Origin: Streptomyces sp. NBC_00536
GTDB taxonomy: Bacteria; Actinomycetota; Actinomycetes; Streptomycetales; Streptomycetaceae
Length of the DNA stretch: 64,000 nucleotides
Assembly: GCF_036346295.1 (NCBI RefSeq)
Contig: NZ_CP107819.1
Location: forward strand, 1,178,001 to 1,242,000
Direction: 5' to 3'
Numbering within the stretch: position 1 is the stretch's first letter; each line of letters starts with the position of its first letter. This document shows positions 53,068 to 63,773 of the stretch, piece by piece. The translations under genes were made by a program, and so were the position numbers. Under the pieces are notes generated by a model that searched no databases, had not been told where the DNA came from, and was given only the letters and a program-made list of their open reading frames with translations.

Positions 53068-54402
53068 ATGACCATCACCGCCCCGGCCGATGCTCCGGCC
53101 AATGCCGGCGAGCTGTCCATATGGCCCGCGTCCACGACCCCGCTCCCGCACGGCGGCCTGGCCGTCGGCGGGGTACCGCTCGGCGAGATCGCCGACCGCT
53201 TCGACACACCGGTGTACATCCTGGACGAGGGCGAGGTGCGCGCCCGCTGCCGCACCTACCGGGACGCGTTCCCCGACGCCGACGTGCTGTACGCCGCGAA
53301 GGCCTTCCTCTCCCGCGCCATGGTGCGCTGGGTGGACGAGGAGGGGCTCGGCCTGGACGTGTGCTCGGCCGGGGAGCTGGAACTCGCCGTCACCGCCGGT
53401 TTCCCGCCCGAGCGGATCGTGCTGCACGGCAACGCGAAGTCGCCCCGCGACCTGGAGGCGGCGCTGCGGCTCGGCGTGGGGCGGATCGTGATCGACGGTC
53501 CGTCCGAGATCGCGCGGATCGCGGCCGCCATGGGCCCCGGCGGGCACCAGAAGGTCATGGTGCGGGTGGTGCCCGGCGTTTCGGCGGGCGCCCACGACAA
53601 GATCCGTACCGGTACGGACGGCCAGAAGTTCGGCCTGTCCCTCACCGACGGGGGCGCGCAGCACGCGATCACCCGGGTCCTCGGCCAGCCCCAGCTCGAA
53701 CTCACCGGACTGCACTGCCACATCGGCTCGCAGATCTCCGACGTGAAGCCCTATCTGGTGGCGCTGCGCCGCCTGGTGGGCCTGATGGCGCGGATCCGGG
53801 ACGCGCACGGGGTGATCCTGCCCGAGCTGGACATGGGCGGCGGCCACGCCGTCGCCTACCGGCCGGGCGAGCCCGCCCTCGACCTCACCGCGCTCGCGCG
53901 CGGGCTCCGCGCGGAGCTGGCCGAGGGCTGCGCGGCCGCCGGGCTGAGCGTGCCGCGCCTCGCCGTCGAGCCGGGGCGGGCCGTCGTCGGCCCGGCCGGT
54001 GTGGCCGTCTACCGGGTGCTCGCCGTCAAGCGCACGGGAGACACGGTGTTCGTGGCGGTCGACGGGGGCATGAGTGACAACCCGCGGCCCGCCCTGTACG
54101 GGGTGCGCTACGCGCCCCGCCTGATCGGCCGCCACTCGACGGCCGGGCCGTGCACCGCGACCGTCGTCGGCCGCCACTGCGAGGCGGGCGACGTGCTGGC
54201 GACCGATGTGGAACTGCCGGGGGACGTCCATCCCGGGGACCTGCTCGCCGTACCGGTGGCGGGCGCGTACCAGCTGTCCATGGCCTCCGGCTACAACCTC
54301 GTCGGGCGCCCCGCGGTCGTCGCCGTGCACGAGGGCACGGCCCGGCTCCTGGTCCGGCGCGAGACGCTGGAGGACTTCCGCGGCCGGGACGTCGGCGCGT
54401 AG
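53068..54402 (+). CDS. lysA: Diaminopimelate decarboxylase homologue (PLP, fold type III)
   Basis: A 444-aa PLP decarboxylase of the DapDC/ornithine decarboxylase group, the last step of lysine synthesis. The PLP lysine lies in YAAKAFLSRAM (about 76-86). Other signatures are GLHCHIGSQI, DMGGGHAVAYRPG and EPGRAVVGPAG; the second-subunit catalytic Cys is in GRHCEAGDVL. A second copy of lysA would suggest supply to the adjacent pathway. It faces the PPTase gene tail to tail with an 18-bp gap. Confidence 0.85.
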   Translation: MTITAPADAPANAGELSIWPASTTPLPHGGLAVGGVPLGEIADRFDTPVYILDEGEVRARCRTYRDAFPDADVLYAAKAFLSRAMVRWVDEEGLGLDVCSAGELELAVTAGFPPERIVLHGNAKSPRDLEAALRLGVGRIVIDGPSEIARIAAAMGPGGHQKVMVRVVPGVSAGAHDKIRTGTDGQKFGLSLTDGGAQHAITRVLGQPQLELTGLHCHIGSQISDVKPYLVALRRLVGLMARIRDAHGVILPELDMGGGHAVAYRPGEPALDLTALARGLRAELAEGCAAAGLSVPRLAVEPGRAVVGPAGVAVYRVLAVKRTGDTVFVAVDGGMSDNPRPALYGVRYAPRLIGRHSTAGPCTATVVGRHCEAGDVLATDVELPGDVHPGDLLAVPVAGAYQLSMASGYNLVGRPAVVAVHEGTARLLVRRETLEDFRGRDVGA

Positions 54403-54420
54403 GCCCGCTGCGGTACGGGG

Positions 54421-55047
54421 TCACCCGTCAAGGGTGAAGGCCGTGGCCGGGGCGGCGCCGGCCACCGCGACCACGGCCGCGCGCCGCTCGTCCGTCCACT
54501 CCAGCAGCTGTACGTCGCCACCTCCCGCCTTCAGCCGGGCCTCCCGGCGGACCCACAGCCGCAGCAGCGCCGGGCCGGGGTCGGGCAGGCCGGCGGCCTC
54601 CCGCAGGTCCGCCGCGGGCAGCATCCGGCTCAGCACCGCCAGGGGGCCGGGACGGCGCGCGGCGGGCTCCACGTCGACGCCGACCGCACCGGGGCCGACG
54701 GCGGCCGCGACCAGCCCGTCGGCATGGCTCAGGCTGACGCCGACATCGGGGTGGCCGGGCAGGTACGGGCGCCCGTGCCCGGGCCGCTCGCACTCGGCGC
54801 AGTACTGCGCCGGGGACGACGCCTGCGGTGCCAGGCCGGTGAACCGGGCGGCGCAGAGCCGCACCAGCAGCCGGGCCGCCACCACGTCGTCGCGGCGGTC
54901 CGGCACCCGGATCCGGTCCAGGCGCTCGCGCTCCCACGGTGCGAGCAGGCCCTCGTGCAGCTCCGGACGGGCCAGCACCTCGCCGGTGGTGGCCACCACG
55001 GCCACCACCGTCCGGCCCGCCGGGCGCTCCTGGCCCGCCCGGCTCAC
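54421..55047 (-). CDS. 4'-phosphopantetheinyl transferase (Sfp-like superfamily)
   Basis: A 208-aa Sfp/Gsp-type transferase that installs the phosphopantetheine arm on carrier proteins. The Mg-binding acidic motif is VGVDVEP (about 115-121), and the second motif is RLWVRREARLKAGG (about 168-181), where the usual WxxKEA lysine-glutamate is conserved in spirit as REA. GTG 55047 overlaps the carrier-protein stop by 4 bp (GTGA), so both are made together. This strongly suggests it activates the adjacent carrier protein. Confidence 0.8.
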   Translation of the reverse strand: MSRAGQERPAGRTVVAVVATTGEVLARPELHEGLLAPWERERLDRIRVPDRRDDVVAARLLVRLCAARFTGLAPQASSPAQYCAECERPGHGRPYLPGHPDVGVSLSHADGLVAAAVGPGAVGVDVEPAARRPGPLAVLSRMLPAADLREAAGLPDPGPALLRLWVRREARLKAGGGDVQLLEWTDERRAAVVAVAGAAPATAFTLDG

Positions 55048-55301
55048 CCGGCCGACGACGAGGCGTCGGCCAGTGCGGCGGCGCTCAGGAAGCGCTGCTG
55101 GACGCGGGCGAGCGTGCGGAAGTCGTCGATGGTGACTTCCTGGAGGTCGATGGTGCTGCCGGAGATCTCCTCCAGGAGGTCGATGAACTCCAAGAAGTCC
55201 ATCGAGTCGATGAGACGGGCCTCGATGAGGTCCTCGTCGGCCTCGATCGCTCCTTCGAGGCCGGGGTTCTTCTCGTGGAGCCACGCGGCGATGCGTTCCA
55301 T
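55044..55301 (-). CDS. Stand-alone acyl/peptidyl carrier protein
   Basis: An 85-aa carrier protein with the phosphopantetheine attachment serine at residue 33 in LIDSMDFLEFIDLLEE. The overall length and acidic helices match free-standing carrier proteins. It is not the fatty-acid AcpP type by context: it lies between an amino acid:[carrier protein] ligase and a PPTase. The likely cargo is an amino acid loaded by that ligase. Confidence 0.88.
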   Translation of the reverse strand: MERIAAWLHEKNPGLEGAIEADEDLIEARLIDSMDFLEFIDLLEEISGSTIDLQEVTIDDFRTLARVQQRFLSAAALADASSSAG

Positions 55302-55379
55302 GGTGCGGGACTTCTCCTTGCTGGGTACGGGTTCGGTGCGGGCGCTGTACGGGCCCGGTACGGGGTGGGTGGGGGCGGC

Positions 55380-56237
55380 TCAGGCCCGGGCGTCGCTCAG
55401 TCGTTCCAGCGCCCGCTCGGGGGTGCCGTGGGTGAGGATCATGGCGTGGACCCAGCGCTCGACGCCGAAGGCGACACAGCCGCTGTACGCCGGTCCGTGC
55501 GAGCCCGCGCGGATGCCGAGCCGCTCGCCGAAGAAGTTGCGGTGGCGGTTCACGGATGCGATGGCGGTGCCGTCGGGGGCGTTGAACTCGTGCTTGACCG
55601 GGTCCAGCGCCATCAGCCGGGCCCGGGAGCCGCCCTTGTCGTAGAACGGGTCGTCGGCCACGGCGCGGGTCAGCTCCAGACCGAGGCGTCCGGCCACGTC
55701 CTGGATGAACTCGGCGCCCTGGTCCAGGTGCTCCACGGCCCCCTGCTTCGTGCCGAGGTACAGGACTTCGCGCATGTGGAAGCCCCACAGGCGGCGCAGT
55801 CCGTCGTAGTGGGTCTCATTGCGAAAGCAACGGCCGGTCGCGGAGAGCCGGAGCCCGTCCTCGCCGACGTCCCGGCCCTCCAGGGAGAGCAGCAGTCCGT
55901 AACAGGTGGCGGACGGCAGCAGGTGGCCGGTCGGCCGCAGGGAGAGTTCCCCGGGCGCCTCACCGGCCGCCAGTCCATCGAAGGCCTCCGGGGCGAAACG
56001 CCCGGCGGACACGCCGAGATGGGGGAAGTTGCGGAAGTAGTCCAGTCGCGCGAGGCCCTCGGCGGCCAGCAGCGGCGGCCCCATCACCTCGGGGGCGGCG
56101 AGCCGTGCGGCCAGTCCGGTGAGCAGGTCGTCCAGACCGCGCAGCAGGGCGGTGTGGACCGGGTCCAGGGTGATCAGGCCCGGACCGGGGTTCTTCAGAC
56201 CGCCGTCCGGCAAGGCGGTGATGCTGGGTGTGCTCAT
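55380..56237 (-). CDS. Amino acid:[carrier protein] ligase (class II aaRS-like)
   Basis: A 285-aa protein resembling the Bradyrhizobium Bll0957 type of truncated seryl-tRNA synthetase homologues. These adenylate a small amino acid and load it on a carrier protein instead of tRNA. The three putative zinc ligands Cys112, Glu157 and Cys254 (in SATCYGL, HMREVLYLG and YSGCVAFGVERW) show nearly the same spacing as the known ones. Motif 2-like CFRNETHYDGLRRLWGFHMR and motif 3-like GVERWVHAM arginines are present. No tRNA-binding N-terminal coil is present. It is divergent from the dioxygenase operon and followed by the carrier protein gene. Confidence 0.85.
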   Translation of the reverse strand: MSTPSITALPDGGLKNPGPGLITLDPVHTALLRGLDDLLTGLAARLAAPEVMGPPLLAAEGLARLDYFRNFPHLGVSAGRFAPEAFDGLAAGEAPGELSLRPTGHLLPSATCYGLLLSLEGRDVGEDGLRLSATGRCFRNETHYDGLRRLWGFHMREVLYLGTKQGAVEHLDQGAEFIQDVAGRLGLELTRAVADDPFYDKGGSRARLMALDPVKHEFNAPDGTAIASVNRHRNFFGERLGIRAGSHGPAYSGCVAFGVERWVHAMILTHGTPERALERLSDARA

Positions 56238-56420
56238 GAATCCGCTCCCTCTGGGCGTGGATGAACAGTCGTCAAGGGCGTCGGCCGGAAATGGGCGGAA
56301 GGGGCGTGTCGCGGCGTGCTCGCATCGGTGCGAACGGCCGCGGACACGGCCGCCGTTGGCCTCGGCACAGCGAGGAGGGCGGCTGACGCTCCGTCATGGA
56401 CAGGAGCTGCGTTACCAGGA

Positions 56421-56449
56421 CACTAAGCCAGCCACTCGGGCATTGTCTA
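56421..56449 (-). promoter_or_regulatory. Putative leftward promoter overlapping a DasR-like site
   Basis: On the minus strand TAGACA (-35) and TTAGTG (-10) are separated by 17 nt, at 56444-56449 and 56421-56426. The -35 element lies inside the first dre-like palindrome, so binding there would block the aa:CP ligase operon. The promoter is predicted from consensus only. Confidence 0.4.
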
Positions 56450-56454
56450 GACCA
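56443..56454. promoter_or_regulatory. DasR-like operator (dre) 1
   Basis: TTGTCTAGACCA matches the DasR core TGGTCTAGACCA at 11 of 12 positions. DasR is the GlcNAc-responsive GntR/HutC regulator of Streptomyces. The site lies in the divergent promoter between the aa:CP ligase and dioxygenase genes. Confidence 0.65.
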
Positions 56455-56533
56455 AAGTTGTCATACCGGCGATCATCGTCGACAGGGGCGTTTCGGGCCC
56501 GAAAGCAACGCAATCAGCATATTGAGACGCCAC

Positions 56534-56539
56534 TTGACA
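56534..56539 (+). promoter_or_regulatory. Putative -35 element of the dioxygenase operon
   Basis: A perfect TTGACA lies 32 bp before the dioxygenase ATG. No good -10 hexamer is seen, and there is no Shine-Dalgarno before the ATG, so the transcript may be leaderless or nearly so. Confidence 0.4.
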
Positions 56540-56546
56540 GCAGCTA

Positions 56547-56558
56547 TGGTCTAAACCA
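56547..56558. promoter_or_regulatory. DasR-like operator (dre) 2
   Basis: TGGTCTAAACCA matches the DasR core at 11 of 12 positions and lies 12 bp upstream of the dioxygenase start, downstream of TTGACA. Repression by steric block is the simplest reading. Confidence 0.65.
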
Positions 56559-56570
56559 ATCCTGCTGAAC

Positions 56571-57695
56571 ATGACGACACCTGCCCCAGACAGTCGCCCC
56601 CGCCGCCCCCGCCCCACGCTGCACAGAGCGCCGTCCGACCGCCCCTACTTCAGCGCGGACGGCGAGTCCTACCTGGCCCAGACCACCTTGCGGGAGCTGA
56701 CCAAGTCGCGGCCGCTGCGGGTGCTGTCCGAAGCGGACTTCGCCCACTGGCAGACGTACGGGTACGTCATCGTCCGGGAGGCGATACCGGCCCCGGAGGC
56801 GCGCCGTCTGCTGGACTTCACCTGGGAGTTCCAGGGGCTCGACCCGGACCGGCCGGACACCTGGCACGAGGACCGGCCGTTCCGCTCCGAGCTGGACCAG
56901 CAGCTGCACGTCTACGGCTTCGTGGAGGCGTACCACCACCAGCTGCTCTGGGACAGCCGCCAGGCCCAGCGGGTGTACGACGCCTTCGTGGACGTCTGGG
57001 ACTGCGAGGAACTCTGGGTCACCCTGGACCGGCTCAACCTCAACCCGCCCAACGTCAAGAACCGCGACCGGGCCCTGATCGACCCCACCGACCGGGGCTT
57101 CGACATCGAGCTGCACTGGGACATCGACACCACCCTCGGCGTCCCCCCGCAGCGCGTGCAGGGCATCATCGCGCTCAACGACACCAGCGCCGAGCTGGGC
57201 GGATTCCAGTGCAACCCGGAACTGTTCCGGCGGTTCGAGGAGTGGAAGACCGCCCAGCCCGCGGGCCGGGACCCGCTGCGCCCCGATGTGGACCGCACCG
57301 AATTCCCCGTCGTCCGGCCCGAACTGCACCCCGGCGACCTGCTGATCTGGAACGGCCTCCTCGCGCACGGCGTGGCCCGCAACACCTCGAAGGACGGGGC
57401 CCGGGCGGTCCAGTACCTGTCGATGATGCCCGCGCTGGAGGAGCACGAGCGGCTGCGGCGCTCCCGCGTGGAATCCTGGCGCCACCTGCGCACCCCGCGC
57501 TGGAACCGCACCCTGGTCGGCGACCCGGTGCGCCCCGAGTCCGAGCGCTACCCCACGGCCACCCTGAATCCGCTCGGCAGCCGCCTCCTCGGGCTCACCT
57601 CGTGGATGGACAGCGACTCCGACTCCGATTCCGACGCGAGCACGAGCACGCACACCGGGCAGAGCGAGGAGCCCTCGTGCGCCGTGTCTGCCTGA
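56571..57695 (+). CDS. Fe(II)/2-oxoglutarate dioxygenase (phytanoyl-CoA dioxygenase family)
   Basis: A 374-aa non-heme iron oxygenase. The iron triad is His and Asp in ELHWDIDTT (about 180-188) and the distal His in LLAHGVARN (about 264-272); Arg in GARAVQYLS would bind 2-oxoglutarate. It likely hydroxylates or otherwise oxidises the amino-acid product or the carrier-bound intermediate. The C-terminus ends in a Ser-Asp repeat (SDSDSDSD) encoded by hexamers. ATG 56571 lacks a clear ribosome site. The next gene's GTG lies inside its last codons. Confidence 0.85.
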   Translation: MTTPAPDSRPRRPRPTLHRAPSDRPYFSADGESYLAQTTLRELTKSRPLRVLSEADFAHWQTYGYVIVREAIPAPEARRLLDFTWEFQGLDPDRPDTWHEDRPFRSELDQQLHVYGFVEAYHHQLLWDSRQAQRVYDAFVDVWDCEELWVTLDRLNLNPPNVKNRDRALIDPTDRGFDIELHWDIDTTLGVPPQRVQGIIALNDTSAELGGFQCNPELFRRFEEWKTAQPAGRDPLRPDVDRTEFPVVRPELHPGDLLIWNGLLAHGVARNTSKDGARAVQYLSMMPALEEHERLRRSRVESWRHLRTPRWNRTLVGDPVRPESERYPTATLNPLGSRLLGLTSWMDSDSDSDSDASTSTHTGQSEEPSCAVSA

Positions 57696-60600
57696 CCCTC
57701 CCCACCAACCGCGCCTGCGCCGAAACCATCGGGGCGATCGGCGCGGAAGCCGCCTACGGCGCCCGGCACTTCGGCGTCGAGGTGCACCTGCTCATCCTGG
57801 ACTCCTCCGCCCCCGCGGTGCTCGCCGAGCACCGGGCGGCGGTGCGCGCGCTGCCCGCGGCGCCCGGCGTGGTCGTCCACCACCTCGACGAGGACGAGCA
57901 GCGGAGCTTCCTGCGCCGGGTGATCGCCCGCTCCGGCGTCGCCGGGCCGGAGCGGCTGCTCGACCTGATGCTGCCGTCCCGGGTGTCCTACGGCGCCTGC
58001 ACCAACCGCGCCTTCCTGATCGCGGAGGCCCTGGGCTGCGCGTCGGTGCACCGCCGCGACTCCGACAGCCACTACCAGTCCCTGGACGGGGAACCGGTCT
58101 TCCCCCTGCACCACGAGCTGACCGCCCTGGGGCGGCCCGCCGCCGAGGTGGCGGGGCTGGTGTCCCGGAGCCGGCTGGCCCCCGCGCACGCGGACCGGCC
58201 GGTGGCCATGGTCGGCGGCTCCTTCATCGGCGAGATGTCCGTGGACGTCGAGGAGATACGACGGCTCGACCCCGCGGTCTACGAGGACGTCATCGGCCTG
58301 TCGGTGCCCGCCGGGCTCGCGGAGATCTGGCGCAGGAACCTGATCGAGCAGTCCTTCCGAGGCGCCGGAACGACCCCCTTCAGCGCCGACCACACCACGC
58401 TCACCCAGGTCAGCCCGATGCGCGTGGACATGTGCAACATCGGCTTCGACCGGGCGGTCTACGGCCGGGTGCCCCTGCCGCCCGCCACCGACACCATCGG
58501 CAGCGACTACTTCCTCATCCACCTGGTCGACGACGCACGGCTCCCCGGTGTCCTGCACAACCGGCACATCGTCAACTACCACACCAACGAACGGCGTTCG
58601 GACGAGGGATTCCTCGCCTACCAGGAGCGGTTCGCGAAGTACCTGCTCTCCACCGGGTACTTCAACGCCGTGTACGCCCGGATGGCCGCGGCCGGCGGGG
58701 AACTCCTCGACGCCGGGGGCCGGGTCCGCGCCGCCGCCGTCGCCGGGTTCGTACGGGAGAGCGCCCTGCTGGACCGGTCGGAGAGCGCCGAACGGCTCGA
58801 CGTCCTGGACCGCTCCTACCGCAAGCTCGGCGGCCGCTACGACGCCGTCGCGGACGCGCTCGCCACCCGTCGCGAACGGCTCCTGGACGAAGCGCGGCAG
58901 GACATGGACGCGTTCGCCCTGCTCATCGACGCCTGGGAACCCCTGGTCCGCGCCTGCGCGGCCGAGGGAATCAGGCCCACCGGGCCGACGGGCACCCGCA
59001 CCGTCACCGTCGCGTACGCGGGCGGCGCGGAGCGCCGGGGCCCCGTCACCATGGGGCAGGCCAACATGATCCGCTGCATCCTGCGGGACGACCCGGCGCA
59101 CATCAACATCCACGACGTGTGGCCGGTCCCCGCGGGGACCGGGCTGGATCCGGTGCTCGACGCGCTGCGCGCGCTGGTGGTGCGGCACGAGGCGCTGCGC
59201 ACCACCTTCCCGGCCGCCGCCCACGACGGCGCTCCCGGCGAACAAGTGGTCGCGGCCGACGGGGAGTTCACGGTCACCGTCCTCGACCACGAGGAACTCC
59301 CCCCGGAACCGGCACACTACGCCGAGTCCCTGGCCAAGGCGGCCCGCGCCGGACGCTACGCCCTCGACCGGGACTTCCCCCTGCGGATCTCCCTCGTCGC
59401 CGTGCACGGCACCCCGGTCTTCGTCGCCCTGGTGTCCAGCCACGCCGTGGCCGACGGCAGTGCCCTCGGCGTCCTGCGGGAGGAATGGCTCACCCTGCTG
59501 GCCGGCGGGACACTGCCGCCGCTGACGGCCTTCACCCCGCTCGACCTCGCCGCCGAGGAGGCGACCCCGGCCGGGCTGCGCAAGTCCGAAGCCTCGCTGC
59601 GGTACTGGGAGGAGATCCTGCGCACCGGCCCGCAGGCGATGTTCGCGGAACCCCGCGCCACGGGCACCGAAGCGCGGATGGCCCAGCTCACCCTGCGCTC
59701 GGCGCGGGGCGCCCGGGCCCTGGCCCGCGTGGTGGAACGTACCGGCGGCCTCCCGTCGACCGTGCTGCTGACGGCGTGGTGCGCGCTCATCGCCCACCGG
59801 GCCGGCCAGCGCACCTGTGTCGTGGCGGCGCCGACCTCCAACCGGTTCCTGCCCCGGCTGGCCCGCTCGGTGAACACCGTGTCGCAGGACGCGCTGCTCT
59901 CCCTCGACGTCGACGTGCCGTCCTTCGACGCGCTGCTGAGCAAGGCGTGGGGGGCGGCGCTCAACGCCTACCGGCACAGCCGCTTCGACTCCGTCCGGCT
60001 GTGGGACATGATCGGGCGGGTCACCTTCGAGCGCGGCAGCCACTTCGCGCGCGACGTCGTGTTCAACGACGTGAGCACGCTCCTGTCCACGCTGCCGTCC
60101 GCCGAGGACGGCGCCGGTCCGGACCAGGAGCCGGAGCTGGCCTGGGGCCCGGAGCAGGTGCTGCCGACCCGGGTGCTGGCCTTCGCCCACCAGACGGATC
60201 CCGTGCTGCGCATCGCGATGTGGGCCGACCCCACGCTGTTCGGCCGGGACGAGGCGGAGGGCTTCCTCACCGGTCTCGTCCGGCTGCTGGAGGCGGCCGG
60301 AGCCGGGGACGTACCCCTCGCCTCGCTCACCGGGGTGACGGGGGTCCGCCCGGTCGAACGCGACGCGGACTGGGTGCGGGTGGACGGCTCCTGGGTCTCG
60401 CCGCCCGTCGTGGCCGAGGCCCTCGGCGCGGCGCTGGGCGGCCTCCCCGTGCACGTCACCACGGAGGACCGGGAAGAGACGCACCTCACCGCGTACATCG
60501 CCTCCGGCGGCGCCCCGCTCACCCCGGCCGGGGCCCACGCCGCGCTGATGGACGTACTCCCGGGCCGTCCCGGTGTCCTGGCGCCGCGGCGGTACGTGAT

Positions 60601-60709
60601 CGTCCAGGACCCGCCGGCCCAGACCGGCCGGAGCAGCGCATGGCTGCGGCAGCAGATCCTCATGGAAGGGAACGGCCGGGAACGGCGGATGTCACATGAC
60701 GATGGATGA
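57677..60709 (+). CDS. Large fusion: DUF6271-like domain + NRPS condensation domain + degenerate adenylation C-lid
   Basis: A 1010-aa protein. Residues 1 to about 430 start RRVCLTLPTNRACAETIGA and contain MVGGSFIGEMSVD and DTIGSDYFLIHL; this resembles the Streptomyces DUF6271 family as I remember it, function unknown. Residues about 455-870 form a condensation domain with the catalytic motif SHAVADG (about 588; first His replaced, second His kept) and RVVNSL-like later blocks. The last about 130 residues resemble the AMP-binding C-terminal lid of adenylation domains (HLTAYIASGGAPLTPAG), but the catalytic lysine motif is replaced (PAQTGRSS). GTG 57677 is preceded by GAGGAG. It would join carrier-bound amino acids or acyl groups. 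Confidence 0.78.
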   Translation: MRRVCLTLPTNRACAETIGAIGAEAAYGARHFGVEVHLLILDSSAPAVLAEHRAAVRALPAAPGVVVHHLDEDEQRSFLRRVIARSGVAGPERLLDLMLPSRVSYGACTNRAFLIAEALGCASVHRRDSDSHYQSLDGEPVFPLHHELTALGRPAAEVAGLVSRSRLAPAHADRPVAMVGGSFIGEMSVDVEEIRRLDPAVYEDVIGLSVPAGLAEIWRRNLIEQSFRGAGTTPFSADHTTLTQVSPMRVDMCNIGFDRAVYGRVPLPPATDTIGSDYFLIHLVDDARLPGVLHNRHIVNYHTNERRSDEGFLAYQERFAKYLLSTGYFNAVYARMAAAGGELLDAGGRVRAAAVAGFVRESALLDRSESAERLDVLDRSYRKLGGRYDAVADALATRRERLLDEARQDMDAFALLIDAWEPLVRACAAEGIRPTGPTGTRTVTVAYAGGAERRGPVTMGQANMIRCILRDDPAHINIHDVWPVPAGTGLDPVLDALRALVVRHEALRTTFPAAAHDGAPGEQVVAADGEFTVTVLDHEELPPEPAHYAESLAKAARAGRYALDRDFPLRISLVAVHGTPVFVALVSSHAVADGSALGVLREEWLTLLAGGTLPPLTAFTPLDLAAEEATPAGLRKSEASLRYWEEILRTGPQAMFAEPRATGTEARMAQLTLRSARGARALARVVERTGGLPSTVLLTAWCALIAHRAGQRTCVVAAPTSNRFLPRLARSVNTVSQDALLSLDVDVPSFDALLSKAWGAALNAYRHSRFDSVRLWDMIGRVTFERGSHFARDVVFNDVSTLLSTLPSAEDGAGPDQEPELAWGPEQVLPTRVLAFAHQTDPVLRIAMWADPTLFGRDEAEGFLTGLVRLLEAAGAGDVPLASLTGVTGVRPVERDADWVRVDGSWVSPPVVAEALGAALGGLPVHVTTEDREETHLTAYIASGGAPLTPAGAHAALMDVLPGRPGVLAPRRYVIVQDPPAQTGRSSAWLRQQILMEGNGRERRMSHDDG

Positions 60710-61943
60710 GGTAACCGTCCGGCCGGAGCGGATCGCGCTCCCCAGCCCGTGGCGGTCGGGTCGCTTCCGCCTGTTCTTCACCGCCCGCAGCACCTCGCTG
60801 CTGGCCGACGGCATGCTGATGGTCTCGCTCACGACCGCCGTGCTGGGGGCCGGTTACGGGGCGGGCGGAGTGGGCTACGCGCTGGCCGCGTGGATGGCTC
60901 CGATCGTGCTGCTCGTGCTCGTCGGCGGAGTGCTGGCCGACAGGTTCACCCCGCAGGTGATGATGGTCGGCGCCGACGTGGTGCGGATGGTGGCCATGCT
61001 CGCCCTCGCGGCACTGCTGGCCACCGACCACGTACGGCTGTGGCAGATCATGGCGCTGCTCGCGCTCAGCGGCGCCGCGACCGCCATGTTCCAGCCCGGT
61101 CTGGCGAGCCTGGTCCCCCGGGTCGCCGAGGACATCCAGCGGGCCAACGCGCTGCTGCGGATCTCCGAGGCGATCTGCACCCTGCTCGGCCCCGGTGTGG
61201 CCGGTCTCCTGGTGGCCTACTGGGACGTGGCGGGATCCTTCGTGGTCATCGCGGTGTTCTACGCGCTCAGCGCCCTCGGCCTGACGCCGCTGCGAGGGCT
61301 GGGCACCGCCCGGGACGAGAGCGACGAACCCCTGTCGCGCCGGCTGGTCACGGGCTGGCACGAGTTCCGTTCCCGGTCCTGGCTCTGGGGGGTCATCGCT
61401 GTCTGGGCGGTCTACGGGCTCTTCGTCTTCGGCCCGGCGCTGCCGCTCGGCGCGGCGCTGCTCACCGAACAGCACGGGGCCGGCGGATACGGCTGGATCG
61501 CCTCCGCCGACGGCGCCGGCACGATCATCGGCGGCCTGCTCGGCATGCGGGTGCGGCCCGCCCGCCCGCTCGTGGCGGGGGCCTGCGCCATGTTCTTCTT
61601 CTCCCTCAACCCGCTGGCGCCCGCCCTCGGCTGGTCCTTCACGGCCACCGCGCTCACCGGGGTGCTGGCCGGCTGCGGATTCGCCTTCTGGGGGGTCATG
61701 TGGGCGACGAGCGTGCAGTCGCACATCCCGCTGGCGGTGCTGAGCCGCGTCTCCGCCTACGACGTGGCCGGATCCATCATGGTCATCCCGCTGGGCCGGG
61801 TGCTGGCGGGCCCGGCGGCCGAATCCTTCGGCGCCGACCGCGTGCTGCTCTTCTCCTCCGCGGTCGGCCTCGTGCTCATGGCCGTCATGCTCTGCGTCCC
61901 CGCCATCCGCGCCCTGGGCCGCGCCGCCCCGGAGGGCGCCTGA
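60696..61943 (+). CDS. MFS transporter (probable exporter of the cluster product)
   Basis: A 415-aa major facilitator superfamily protein with about ten to twelve hydrophobic segments and the MFS loop VLADRFTPQVMMVGADVVRM. The subfamily looks like the MdfA/enterobactin-exporter-type drug and siderophore exporters. It starts within the last codons of the condensation-domain gene (ATG 60696, 14-bp overlap), so export of the cluster product is the natural inference. A strong inverted repeat follows its stop. Confidence 0.85.
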   Translation: MTMDEVTVRPERIALPSPWRSGRFRLFFTARSTSLLADGMLMVSLTTAVLGAGYGAGGVGYALAAWMAPIVLLVLVGGVLADRFTPQVMMVGADVVRMVAMLALAALLATDHVRLWQIMALLALSGAATAMFQPGLASLVPRVAEDIQRANALLRISEAICTLLGPGVAGLLVAYWDVAGSFVVIAVFYALSALGLTPLRGLGTARDESDEPLSRRLVTGWHEFRSRSWLWGVIAVWAVYGLFVFGPALPLGAALLTEQHGAGGYGWIASADGAGTIIGGLLGMRVRPARPLVAGACAMFFFSLNPLAPALGWSFTATALTGVLAGCGFAFWGVMWATSVQSHIPLAVLSRVSAYDVAGSIMVIPLGRVLAGPAAESFGADRVLLFSSAVGLVLMAVMLCVPAIRALGRAAPEGA

Positions 61944-62018: not shown

Positions 62019-63575
62019 TCAGGCGCCGCCGGGAGTGGGGTCACGGTCGATGACCTGCAGGAGCTTGAGCAGTTGCCTGGTTGCATCCAGTGCCGGGGCG
62101 TCCTGTTCGGGGGCGTCAACGTCCCAGTGCGCCAGGGCGTTCCTGTAAGCGCTGACCGTCTTGAGCCGGTCGACCATGTCCTCACGCTCGTACGGCCAGT
62201 CGAGCTTCGCCCAGCGGGCGTCGTCGTCGATCAGAAAGCGGTAGGCGCCGAGTGTCAGATCGGCAGCCGAGTGGATCTTCGCTGCCATATGAGGTTTGTG
62301 CGACGCGCGCAGTTCCTCAAGGGTGAAGCAGCCGACCGCACGGCGCAGTCTGCGCTCCACCTCTTCGAGGAGGGTGAAGGGTTCGACCCGCAGCTTCAAC
62401 TGGGCGGCCAGGTCGGAGGCGGTGAGAACGCCCACCACGACACCTTCGGCATCCACGATGATCAGGAAGCCGCGGTGCTGGATGTCCCCGATGCGCCCGA
62501 AGAGTTCCTCGGATTCCCGCGCGGTCCGTGGATGGCGGTGCATCGCCTCGGCGATGGTGCCCTCGCGCCGCCCGAGCTGGGCGCGCGCTATGCCCTCCCA
62601 TGTCACCGCGCCGATGAGCCGGTTGTGCGGCCCGACGACCGGCAGCTGCGAGAAGTCTCCTTGGATCATGCGAGTGACGGCCCGGCTCAAGGGCGCCTGT
62701 TCCTCGATGGTGACGACATCGCGTACGAACGGCAGACTGCCGATGCGCCAGGCGAGGTCCGCCTGGTCCGACCCGCCTGCCGTGCCCACGGCGGAGTCCT
62801 GGTAGGTGTGCCCGCCCTCCGGTGCGGCCACGTCGGCCTCTGGGTTCGCCGCGGCGACGGCGGACACGGTGACGATCCCGTCCATGCGTACGTCCGTGAA
62901 GTGCGGATCCACCCGCAACCCCCGCGTGCCCAGTTCACGGTCGACGAGGTCGATGACATCGACGGTCCGCCGGGACCAACCCCACAGCCCGATCAGGTCC
63001 CGGGCCGTCAGCTGGCGGCTCCCGGACTCCTCGACATCGCTCTCCAGCTCAACGGGCCCGGTCGGCGGCTCGATGTAGCCGTGGTAGCCGGGATCCACAC
63101 CGTCCGCGGCAAGTGCCTCCACGCGCCGGACCGCGTCGCCACGGCTCAATTCGCTGATGGTCAGCAAGGACCCCATGCTGTCCCGCAGGTCCCCCTTGAC
63201 GGCGGCCCGCTCCACGTCGCGGCGTTCCCACATGACCTCGCGGACGTGACGGAAACCGGGCGGGTTCTGGCCGCGGTACTCGTACTCACCGCTGAGCCGA
63301 CCGATCGCGATCACCGACCGGAACTTGCGCGGCATGACGACGAGGTCCCCGGTGTCCATCTTGAGGAATCGCCACAACTGGTGCGTCCAGCTCCGGACAG
63401 TTCGGGGAGCCTCGTCCGGGTAGGTGCGTTGGAGCTGCTCACCCAGTTCCTCGATCGAAGTGCAGCCCGAGAGGTCGCCCAGGCTTTCCCAGCCCGCGAG
63501 GACCAGTCCTTCGTCCAGCGCTGCCTGCTCCCGCTCGCCCTGCTTCCCGCCCCTGACCGTCCACGCCCTTGCCAC
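62019..63575 (-). CDS. Putative PUA/EVE-like reader + tandem CBS + HEPN-type protein (likely defence effector)
   Basis: A 518-aa protein (an in-frame ATG at 63695 would add 40 residues, but the conserved part starts at VARAWTVRGGKQGERE after GTG 63575). Residues 1 to about 110 resemble the reader-like domain of Mrr-type restriction proteins (GDLVVMPRKFRSVIAIGRL). A linker follows that also occurs in restriction endonucleases (LIGLWGWSRRTVDVIDLV, GLRVDPHF). Residues about 270-395 form two CBS domains (DFSQLPVVGPHNRLIGAVTW, VGVLTASDLA). The C-terminal about 120 residues are helical and contain R478-N-A-L-A-H483, the R-X4-H motif of HEPN ribonucleases (YRNALAHW). CBS domains usually bind adenine nucleotides, so nucleotide-gated RNase activity is inferred. 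Confidence 0.75.
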   Translation of the reverse strand: MARAWTVRGGKQGEREQAALDEGLVLAGWESLGDLSGCTSIEELGEQLQRTYPDEAPRTVRSWTHQLWRFLKMDTGDLVVMPRKFRSVIAIGRLSGEYEYRGQNPPGFRHVREVMWERRDVERAAVKGDLRDSMGSLLTISELSRGDAVRRVEALAADGVDPGYHGYIEPPTGPVELESDVEESGSRQLTARDLIGLWGWSRRTVDVIDLVDRELGTRGLRVDPHFTDVRMDGIVTVSAVAAANPEADVAAPEGGHTYQDSAVGTAGGSDQADLAWRIGSLPFVRDVVTIEEQAPLSRAVTRMIQGDFSQLPVVGPHNRLIGAVTWEGIARAQLGRREGTIAEAMHRHPRTARESEELFGRIGDIQHRGFLIIVDAEGVVVGVLTASDLAAQLKLRVEPFTLLEEVERRLRRAVGCFTLEELRASHKPHMAAKIHSAADLTLGAYRFLIDDDARWAKLDWPYEREDMVDRLKTVSAYRNALAHWDVDAPEQDAPALDATRQLLKLLQVIDRDPTPGGA

Positions 63576-63773
63576 GACCCCGCCCCACCCCGTGCTCGAA
63601 TCCTTCGACCGTCCGCCGCTGGCCGGAAGCGAAACAGTAGTGAGCAAGGATCTGATTCGCTCACCCGCGGCCACGAGATGGCTGGGAATCGCCATTTCCG
63701 GTACCGAACCACTCCGTTCGACACGCTTCGAACAAGCGGCGGGCGGCGTGGCCCGCGATCTACGATCGCCCTC

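Follow-up and report, generated by a model that had tools for sequence, protein, structure and literature searches.

Comparison with described systems

Amino acid:[carrier protein] ligases resemble class-II seryl-tRNA synthetases (SerRS), and the known members of the family are described in passages of PMC5370406 as loading glycine or alanine onto a carrier protein without charging tRNA. A predicted ligase of this kind is encoded at a locus spanning positions 54421-61943 of a 64,000-nucleotide stretch (hereafter the window, G000:C1:1178001-1242000) of the 9.15-Mb genome of Streptomyces sp. NBC_00536. The best explanation of the locus as a whole, which we regard as reasonably probable on the grounds of sequence comparison, is a cluster that would load glycine onto a carrier protein, be linked to the DasR regulator and give rise to a secreted metabolite.

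The best solved relatives of the window ligase are 4h2w and 3mey, amino acid:[acyl-carrier-protein] ligase 1 of Bradyrhizobium, which match its residues 31-274 and share its class-II SerRS-like core and three Zn-ligand positions. In that system the carrier protein gene is adjacent too, as stated in a passage of PMC5370406. However, the relationship is distant (phmmer E 1e-23) and the window ligase is clustered with a PhyH-type oxygenase, the domain DUF6271, a condensation domain and an exporter. A SerRS paralogue also serves a Streptomyces metabolite in the VlmL/VlmA system of valanimycin; there the transfer depends on tRNA, with VlmL charging tRNA(Ser) (PMC5370406, in part), whereas a carrier protein is the expected partner of the window ligase.

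The glycine-nitronate (enteromycin-class) pathways resemble the window cluster through relatives of the ligase that occur with AurF-type and nitronate monooxygenase (NMO)-like genes, and through one locus (L082) that is a hybrid of both kinds. Glycine-nitronate cassettes of enteromycin-class pathways were reportedly described by He and Ryan in 2021. Passages of PMC9967187 propose glycine-derived nitronates on carrier proteins for this class, with glycine on a carrier protein as the start, while for akazaoxime its authors predicted an adenylation-peptidyl carrier protein (A-PCP) instead of a ligase. In contrast to the enteromycin-class pathways, the scanned proteins of the window cluster include no AurF-type oxygenase, nitronate monooxygenase or O-methyltransferase.

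Likeness to the DasR regulon lies in two predicted operator sites that match the dre consensus and sites of the same genome at dasR/dasA-like and HPr genes; passages of one paper on DasR do not mention such a cluster. Neither a description of this cluster nor any mention of DUF6271 was found in the literature searched, most subscription journals being outside its coverage. We consider as new the core pair of PhyH and DUF6271 with two alternative modules, the conserved two-operator promoter and the link of sister clusters to glycoside hydrolase family 3 (GH3) genes.

Gene content and organization of the cluster

The cluster consists of two divergent units, with the ligase, carrier protein and phosphopantetheinyl transferase genes reading leftward and the PhyH, DUF6271-condensation fusion and exporter genes reading rightward:

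54421..55047, minus strand: 4'-phosphopantetheinyl transferase (PPTase); PF01648, 31.2 bits against a cut-off of 25
55044..55301, minus strand: stand-alone acyl carrier protein (ACP) with a DSM motif; PF00550, 16.8 bits, below the cut-off of 20.8
55380..56237, minus strand: amino acid:[carrier protein] ligase, class-II SerRS-like; 4h2w/3mey, E 1e-23
56238..56570, no strand: divergent promoter region common to both operons; two-site layout in 63/63 tested regions
56571..57695, plus strand: PhyH-type Fe(II)/2-oxoglutarate oxygenase; PF05721, 35.5 bits
57677..60709, plus strand: fusion of DUF6271 (residues 2-431; PF19787, 747 bits) and a nonribosomal peptide synthetase (NRPS) condensation domain (match 492-732; PF00668, 60.7 bits)
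60696..61943, plus strand: major facilitator superfamily (MFS) exporter; PF07690, 72.9 bits

The GTG start of the PPTase gene and the stop of the carrier protein gene overlap, and the DUF6271-condensation fusion is 1010 residues long. The nearest NCBI models of the exporter are efflux transporters, every one of which scores below its cut-off. An adenylation (AMP-binding) domain, the criterion of a canonical NRPS, gave no Pfam match in the 10 proteins scanned between 50628 and 63695.

A preliminary description of this DNA, made from the sequence, had proposed a natural-product pathway here. Profile and homology searches recovered, gene by gene, every gene that it named, and the coordinates confirm its account of a ligase, carrier protein and PPTase operon divergent from the dioxygenase, condensation fusion and exporter; the absence of an ordinary adenylation domain was likewise borne out by the scan of the 10 proteins. 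The gene set is real, but the left edge had been placed at 53068, which takes in a lysA gene, and is corrected here to 54421. The condensation fusion is also present as described, although its N-terminal half, DUF6271, had been left unnamed. What stands of the pathway proposal is a co-inherited cluster with a ligase, ACP and PPTase in place of the adenylation domain; its link to lysine does not stand. The locus is an intact and conserved gene cluster of Streptomyces, probably for the biosynthesis of a small molecule.

Conservation of the seven parts

Seven parts make up the cluster (ligase, ACP, PPTase, PhyH, DUF6271, condensation domain and MFS), and their joint inheritance goes beyond chance. 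When named genomes were scanned for the ligase and the best 80 of 81 confirmed stretches were taken, 79 distinct loci resulted, and in 63 of these (the close loci) the ligase is at least 75% identical to that of the window. All seven parts are found in 55 of the 63. The other eight are L049, L092, L106, L113 and L119, which are contig ends or fragments, the variants L067 and L082, and L089, which gave no PPTase match. In the 56 loci with flanking sequence the parts were each called in 40 (PPTase) to 55 (MFS) loci, DUF6271 as a separate gene in 46, and the next commonest neighbour family in 16, counts that depend on a simple gene caller, as do those for the 20 sister clusters described below. 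The rows are not fully independent, some genomes being entered both under a G-genome locus (L021-L040) and under a named locus (e.g., L023/L048). The distribution of the ligase version is patchy, at 12 of the 121 Streptomyces genomes sampled.

Compared with L044 of S. xanthophaeus, L022 and L074 of S. griseus, the rate of nonsynonymous substitution (dN) is below the synonymous rate (dS) for each of the seven parts, with values for the ligase of 0.04-0.10 and 0.29-0.49, respectively; the weakest contrast is that of the carrier protein against L022 (0.14 and 0.23). A degenerate, non-functional remnant is scarcely credible given these values, the open reading frames and the retention of catalytic-type residues. 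The window itself holds no sign of decay, and the point to be made for such a remnant comes from the relatives, where L102 matches in broken pieces.

Ligase, carrier protein and likely substrate

The ligase scores 108 bits with PRK07080, below the curated NCBI cut-off of 357; this is an equivalog model, so the low score bears on close kinship and not on membership of the wider family. Residues C112, E141 and C254, whose positions we take to be the Zn ligands, are identical in 95/95 aligned sequences including the Bradyrhizobium row, in agreement with the expectation of Zn ligands in the preliminary description. The arginines of motifs 2 and 3 (R139 and R261) are equally invariant (95/95). The protein is 285 amino acids in length, the type-2 SerRS 3w3s is matched only from 3w3s residue 210 onward, and the ligase is, as judged from this alignment, without the N-terminal tRNA-binding part of SerRS. 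Its presumptive partner carries the attachment residue Ser33 in a DSM motif; an ACP match was obtained in 61 of the 63 close loci, and the motif is DSM, DSL or DSI in 60 of these 61.

The preliminary description had regarded this route of amino acid activation as little known in Streptomyces, which is right only in part, as 40 of the 121 genomes hold a ligase match at E <= 1e-10 and most of the relatives compared occur with AurF-type genes. Among 94 ligases compared, 62 (that of the window included) occur with PhyH and DUF6271. Within the stretches retrieved, which span at most 20 kb, 27 of the 32 without PhyH are accompanied by an AurF-like gene, and an NMO-like gene is also present in 16 of these 27; L049, one of the five rows with neither PhyH nor an AurF-like gene, is cut by a contig end. 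The nearest trusted outgroup ligases (L095, L100, L101 and L112) are found with AurF-like, NMO-like and condensation genes, the Pfam scores in L112 being 85 bits for AurF and 93 bits for NMO. In a tree built by a quick method from 51 rows, 13 of them of the PhyH type, the PhyH-type ligases are nested inside the AurF-associated group; L016 and L018, two rows of a far ligase group (28-35% identity), have very long branches, and their placement is not trusted. The comparison, alignment and tree leave out L092, L102, L106, L113 and L119, along with matches of fewer than 200 residues (L039 among them). The L039 match (G000:C1:7133500-7153000) is a second one in the genome of the window, beside NMO-like and AurF-like genes; only query residues 79-266 align and the gene may be shortened.

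From these comparisons the substrate of the window ligase is likely to be a small amino acid, most likely glycine and not lysine, because relatives of the ligase sit with AurF- and NMO-type genes, as in the proposed glycine-nitronate chemistry. It could be asked whether the window cluster itself encodes such a glycine-nitronate pathway, as has been suggested for relatives of its ligase, given that the nearest outgroups have AurF-type, NMO-like and condensation genes and that L082 joins PhyH-DUF6271 to AurF-type, NMO-like and O-methyltransferase genes. We consider this very unlikely. The corresponding enzymes are absent from the scanned window proteins, for which reason the cluster is not called a nitronate pathway, and of 61 other PhyH-type loci only L082 matches these genes.

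The lysA gene as a bystander

One further gene adjoins the cluster on its left side:

53068..54402, plus strand: lysA-type decarboxylase, outside the cluster; TIGR01048, 415 bits against a cut-off of 298

The preliminary description had suggested that LysA might supply a lysine-type precursor to the ligase. The adjacency in this genome and the presence of a distant relative of LysA and ornithine decarboxylase (ODC) in the decarboxylase-type sister clusters speak for this, but the gene is not co-inherited. Only two of the 63 close loci, L086 (50% identity, approximately 3 kb from the ligase and in an orientation unlike that of the window) and L082 (28% identity, a decarboxylase-type enzyme beside DUF6271), gave a LysA-like match within the stretch retrieved. 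In seven of the 11 other cluster-bearing genomes of the 121-genome sample (G004, G015, G062, G083, G090, G124 and G139), a lysA of 74-85% identity lies on a different contig or at a distance of megabases, and the genome of the window has a better-scoring lysA elsewhere (5.58 Mb, 468 bits). Furthermore, the known ligases of the family load glycine or alanine (PMC5370406, in part). A role of LysA as a pathway enzyme was rejected on synteny and, by the gene orders compared, lysA is not part of the cluster; supply of a lysine-type precursor by it is thus highly improbable.

The PhyH-DUF6271 pair and its sister clusters

DUF6271 was found in 39 of the 121 Streptomyces genomes; a set of 14 well-known genomes, taken as controls, gave none. 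In 38 of the 39, PhyH is its neighbour as read from the coordinates, and 12 of these 38 have the close ligase. In 26 genomes the pair occurs without a close ligase, and 20 of these loci were fetched (L120-L139). These sister clusters have the same PhyH-DUF6271 pair and a dedicated MFS, and a dre-like site in 13/20. They differ from the window in that a decarboxylase and a GNAT protein replace the ligase, ACP, PPTase and condensation domain, and in that the MFS is of another family (20/20). The decarboxylase, an ornithine/lysine-decarboxylase-like enzyme that is a distant LysA/ODC relative, is present in all 20, with only a short piece called in L134; the GNAT protein is present in 19 as judged by family clustering, sequences having been read in four. 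The fusion of DUF6271 to the condensation domain seen in the window recurs in 10 of 61 other loci; in the remaining 51 the two are separate. On the strength of the 38/39 adjacency, the fusions and the module swap, PhyH and DUF6271 would appear to work as a core pair, with ligase, ACP, PPTase and condensation domain or decarboxylase and GNAT as exchangeable partners.

Two loci of composite form were observed. In L136 (7468-10542) DUF6271, a decarboxylase-like and a GNAT-like part are fused in one protein of 1025 residues. The hybrid L082 holds PhyH-DUF6271, decarboxylase, GNAT, ABC pair, AurF-like, ligase, NMO-like, O-methyltransferase, ACP, isochorismatase-like and PPTase genes.

Across 15 aligned PhyH sequences, the most distant at 45% identity, H182-x-D184, H266 and Arg278 do not vary, and Arg278 is the probable 2-oxoglutarate residue. 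On account of the Asp in the putative HxD motif, the protein is expected to be an oxygenase rather than a halogenase; its solved relatives gave no useful match for its substrate. Distant relatives of PhyH (43-48%) were seen in L141, L142 and L143 within another recurring gene set, comprising radical SAM, carbamoyltransferase-like, PhyH, MFS, thioredoxin-reductase-like and SGNH-like genes (named by eye).

The condensation domain carries SHAVADG at residues 588-594, with an active-site-type His at 589. The H and D of the SHxxxD motif are kept in 55/55 aligned rows, in which the window is probably present twice, while the full HxxxDG is absent in 21, the last letter not being G.

The RRDSD of DUF6271 is invariant, even in a 26% identical relative. 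That distant member (G061:C40:198465-199736; L140:9433-10797) has no PhyH and lies beside a glycine-betaine-type ABC transporter, named by eye. A GT-A fold with a DxD motif is suggested, by eye, by the start of DUF6271 (LTLPTNR...LLILDSS) together with RRDSD, and 2 among 120 listed homologues bear the name 'Glycosyltransferase family 2 protein'. A comparison of profiles, run against a single GT2-like protein (so named by eye), yielded a probability of 0.2%, against 0.1% for the control, and the identification as a glycosyltransferase was rejected; a role in sugar transfer is a guess. A weak HEV_ORF1 match (best E 0.032, 4/26 members) was taken as chance.

The divergent promoter and its operators

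The promoter region was compared in 63 loci in which the starts of the ligase and PhyH genes are 50-1500 bases apart (L067 and L082 fall outside this count). It contains the following elements:

56443..56454, no strand: dre-like operator TTGTCTAGACCA, ligase side; last 11 letters invariant in 63 regions
56534..56539, plus strand: TTGACA, a possible -35 element for PhyH; conserved to 90% or more across the 63-region alignment
56547..56558, no strand: dre-like operator TGGTCTAAACCA, PhyH side; GGTCT and ACCA invariant in 63 regions

Both operators are palindromes, and the TTGACA, whose role in a promoter is putative, stands 7 bases before the second. With up to two mismatches allowed, the two operators are kept in 63/63 regions (two sites in 62 and three in one), where mononucleotide shuffles give an expectation of 0.0067 per region, and they are spaced 102-105 bases apart in 41 of the 63. 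The operator cores are near-invariant in regions that have a median identity of 60% to the window and in an alignment whose columns average 66% conservation, the alignment having been cut around the sites, which helps them to align.

The effectors of DasR are amino-sugar phosphates derived from N-acetylglucosamine (GlcNAc) and chitin. Each of the two operators is one mismatch from the 12-base core of the DasR consensus, A(G/C)TGGTCTAGACCA(G/C)T, as given in a passage of PMC4398421. The 12-mer TTGTCTAGACCA is identical to a site before the HPr gene of the same genome, and TGGTCTAAACCA to a site between its dasR-like and dasA-like genes (dasA named by eye); near-matches are also present at phosphotransferase system (PTS)-like genes (by eye), at nagB and at a lytic polysaccharide monooxygenase (LPMO) gene. 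Control of the cluster by DasR, and with it by GlcNAc and chitin, is likely, because the operators are kept in 63/63 regions and the same 12-mers occur at the dasR/dasA-like and HPr genes.

In 13 of the 20 decarboxylase-type sister clusters, a TGGTCTAGTCCA site stands no more than 600 bases ahead of PhyH. A GH3 gene, 52-72% identical to one beside nagB, lies near 14 of the 20, and a dasR-like gene (62-75% identical) is found in four.

Proposed pathway and its interpretation

In the mechanism that we propose, the PPTase would arm the ACP at Ser33, and the ligase would adenylate a small amino acid (glycine being the likeliest) and load it onto the ACP. The condensation domain would then hand the aminoacyl group, or a derivative of it, to an amine or hydroxyl of a scaffold. 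The exchange of modules with GNAT-containing clusters and the fusions suggest that this scaffold is made by PhyH and DUF6271 acting together. Decarboxylase with GNAT on the one hand, and ligase, ACP and condensation domain on the other, would be two routes by which an amine on a common type of scaffold is made or acylated. Export of the product would fall to the MFS, and a DasR-type repressor may hold both arms of the cluster until amino-sugar phosphates from GlcNAc or chitin release them. With a sugar amine as acceptor, the DasR link and an earlier prediction for other operons of the ligase family (PMC2922099, note in proof) could both be accommodated. A literature search on nagstatin and other hexosaminidase inhibitors as the product gave nothing useful.

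Several observations weigh against this mechanism. Glycine is deduced from relatives of the ligase, and the window cluster has no diiron oxygenase. DUF6271 has no other convincing Pfam kin and no solved relative in the PDB. The one-mismatch operator pattern is only mildly enriched genome-wide (27 places, compared with 20 for the reversed pattern), and of eight stretches inspected, covering 11 of the 27 places, two (L153 and L157) hold nothing recognisable by eye as an amino-sugar gene. Seven of the 20 decarboxylase-type clusters are without a site within 600 bases of PhyH. No one-mismatch site was found in 16 nitronate-type or variant loci, including L067 and L082, in which PhyH, DUF6271 and a close ligase are present with other genes between them. 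The operator could also serve another regulator of the GntR/HutC type. Given the 27 and 20 places, single matches mean little, and it is the conservation of the operators that constitutes the evidence.

An alternative is that the amino acid is ligated to the sugar amine of a cell-surface or intracellular conjugate, as in a mycothiol-like compound or an envelope decoration, and not built into a secreted metabolite. Other operons of the ligase family, located near a glycosidase and liposaccharide genes, were predicted to have such a role in the note in proof of PMC2922099, and a role of this sort would suit the ties of the PhyH-DUF6271 family to chitin/GlcNAc genes. However, a dedicated MFS was called in 55 of the 56 flanked loci, its nearest models being efflux transporters (below cut-off), and the ligase version has a patchy presence (12/121 genomes). 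We therefore regard a conjugate of this kind as unlikely, and favour a secreted metabolite.

If the proposed mechanism is right, a widely conserved Streptomyces cluster gains a likely inducer (GlcNAc/chitin), a likely first substrate (glycine) and a first enzyme that can be tested. It would also offer a way into DUF6271, a domain present in 39 of the 121 sampled Streptomyces genomes, and would tie aminoacyl-tRNA synthetase-like carrier-protein ligases to nutrient-signalled metabolite production. More tentatively, PhyH and DUF6271 may mark a hitherto unrecognised family of actinobacterial metabolites whose production is signalled by chitin/GlcNAc and whose acylation modules are exchangeable, in which DUF6271 would be a new type of enzyme, possibly sugar-handling, and the products would act in competition for chitin and amino sugars.

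Adjoining the cluster on the right (62019-63695, minus strand) is a gene for a CBS-domain protein that resembles anti-phage candidates, matching NF053863 with 205 bits (below the cut-off of 260) and PADLOC PDC-S02 with E 2.5e-50.

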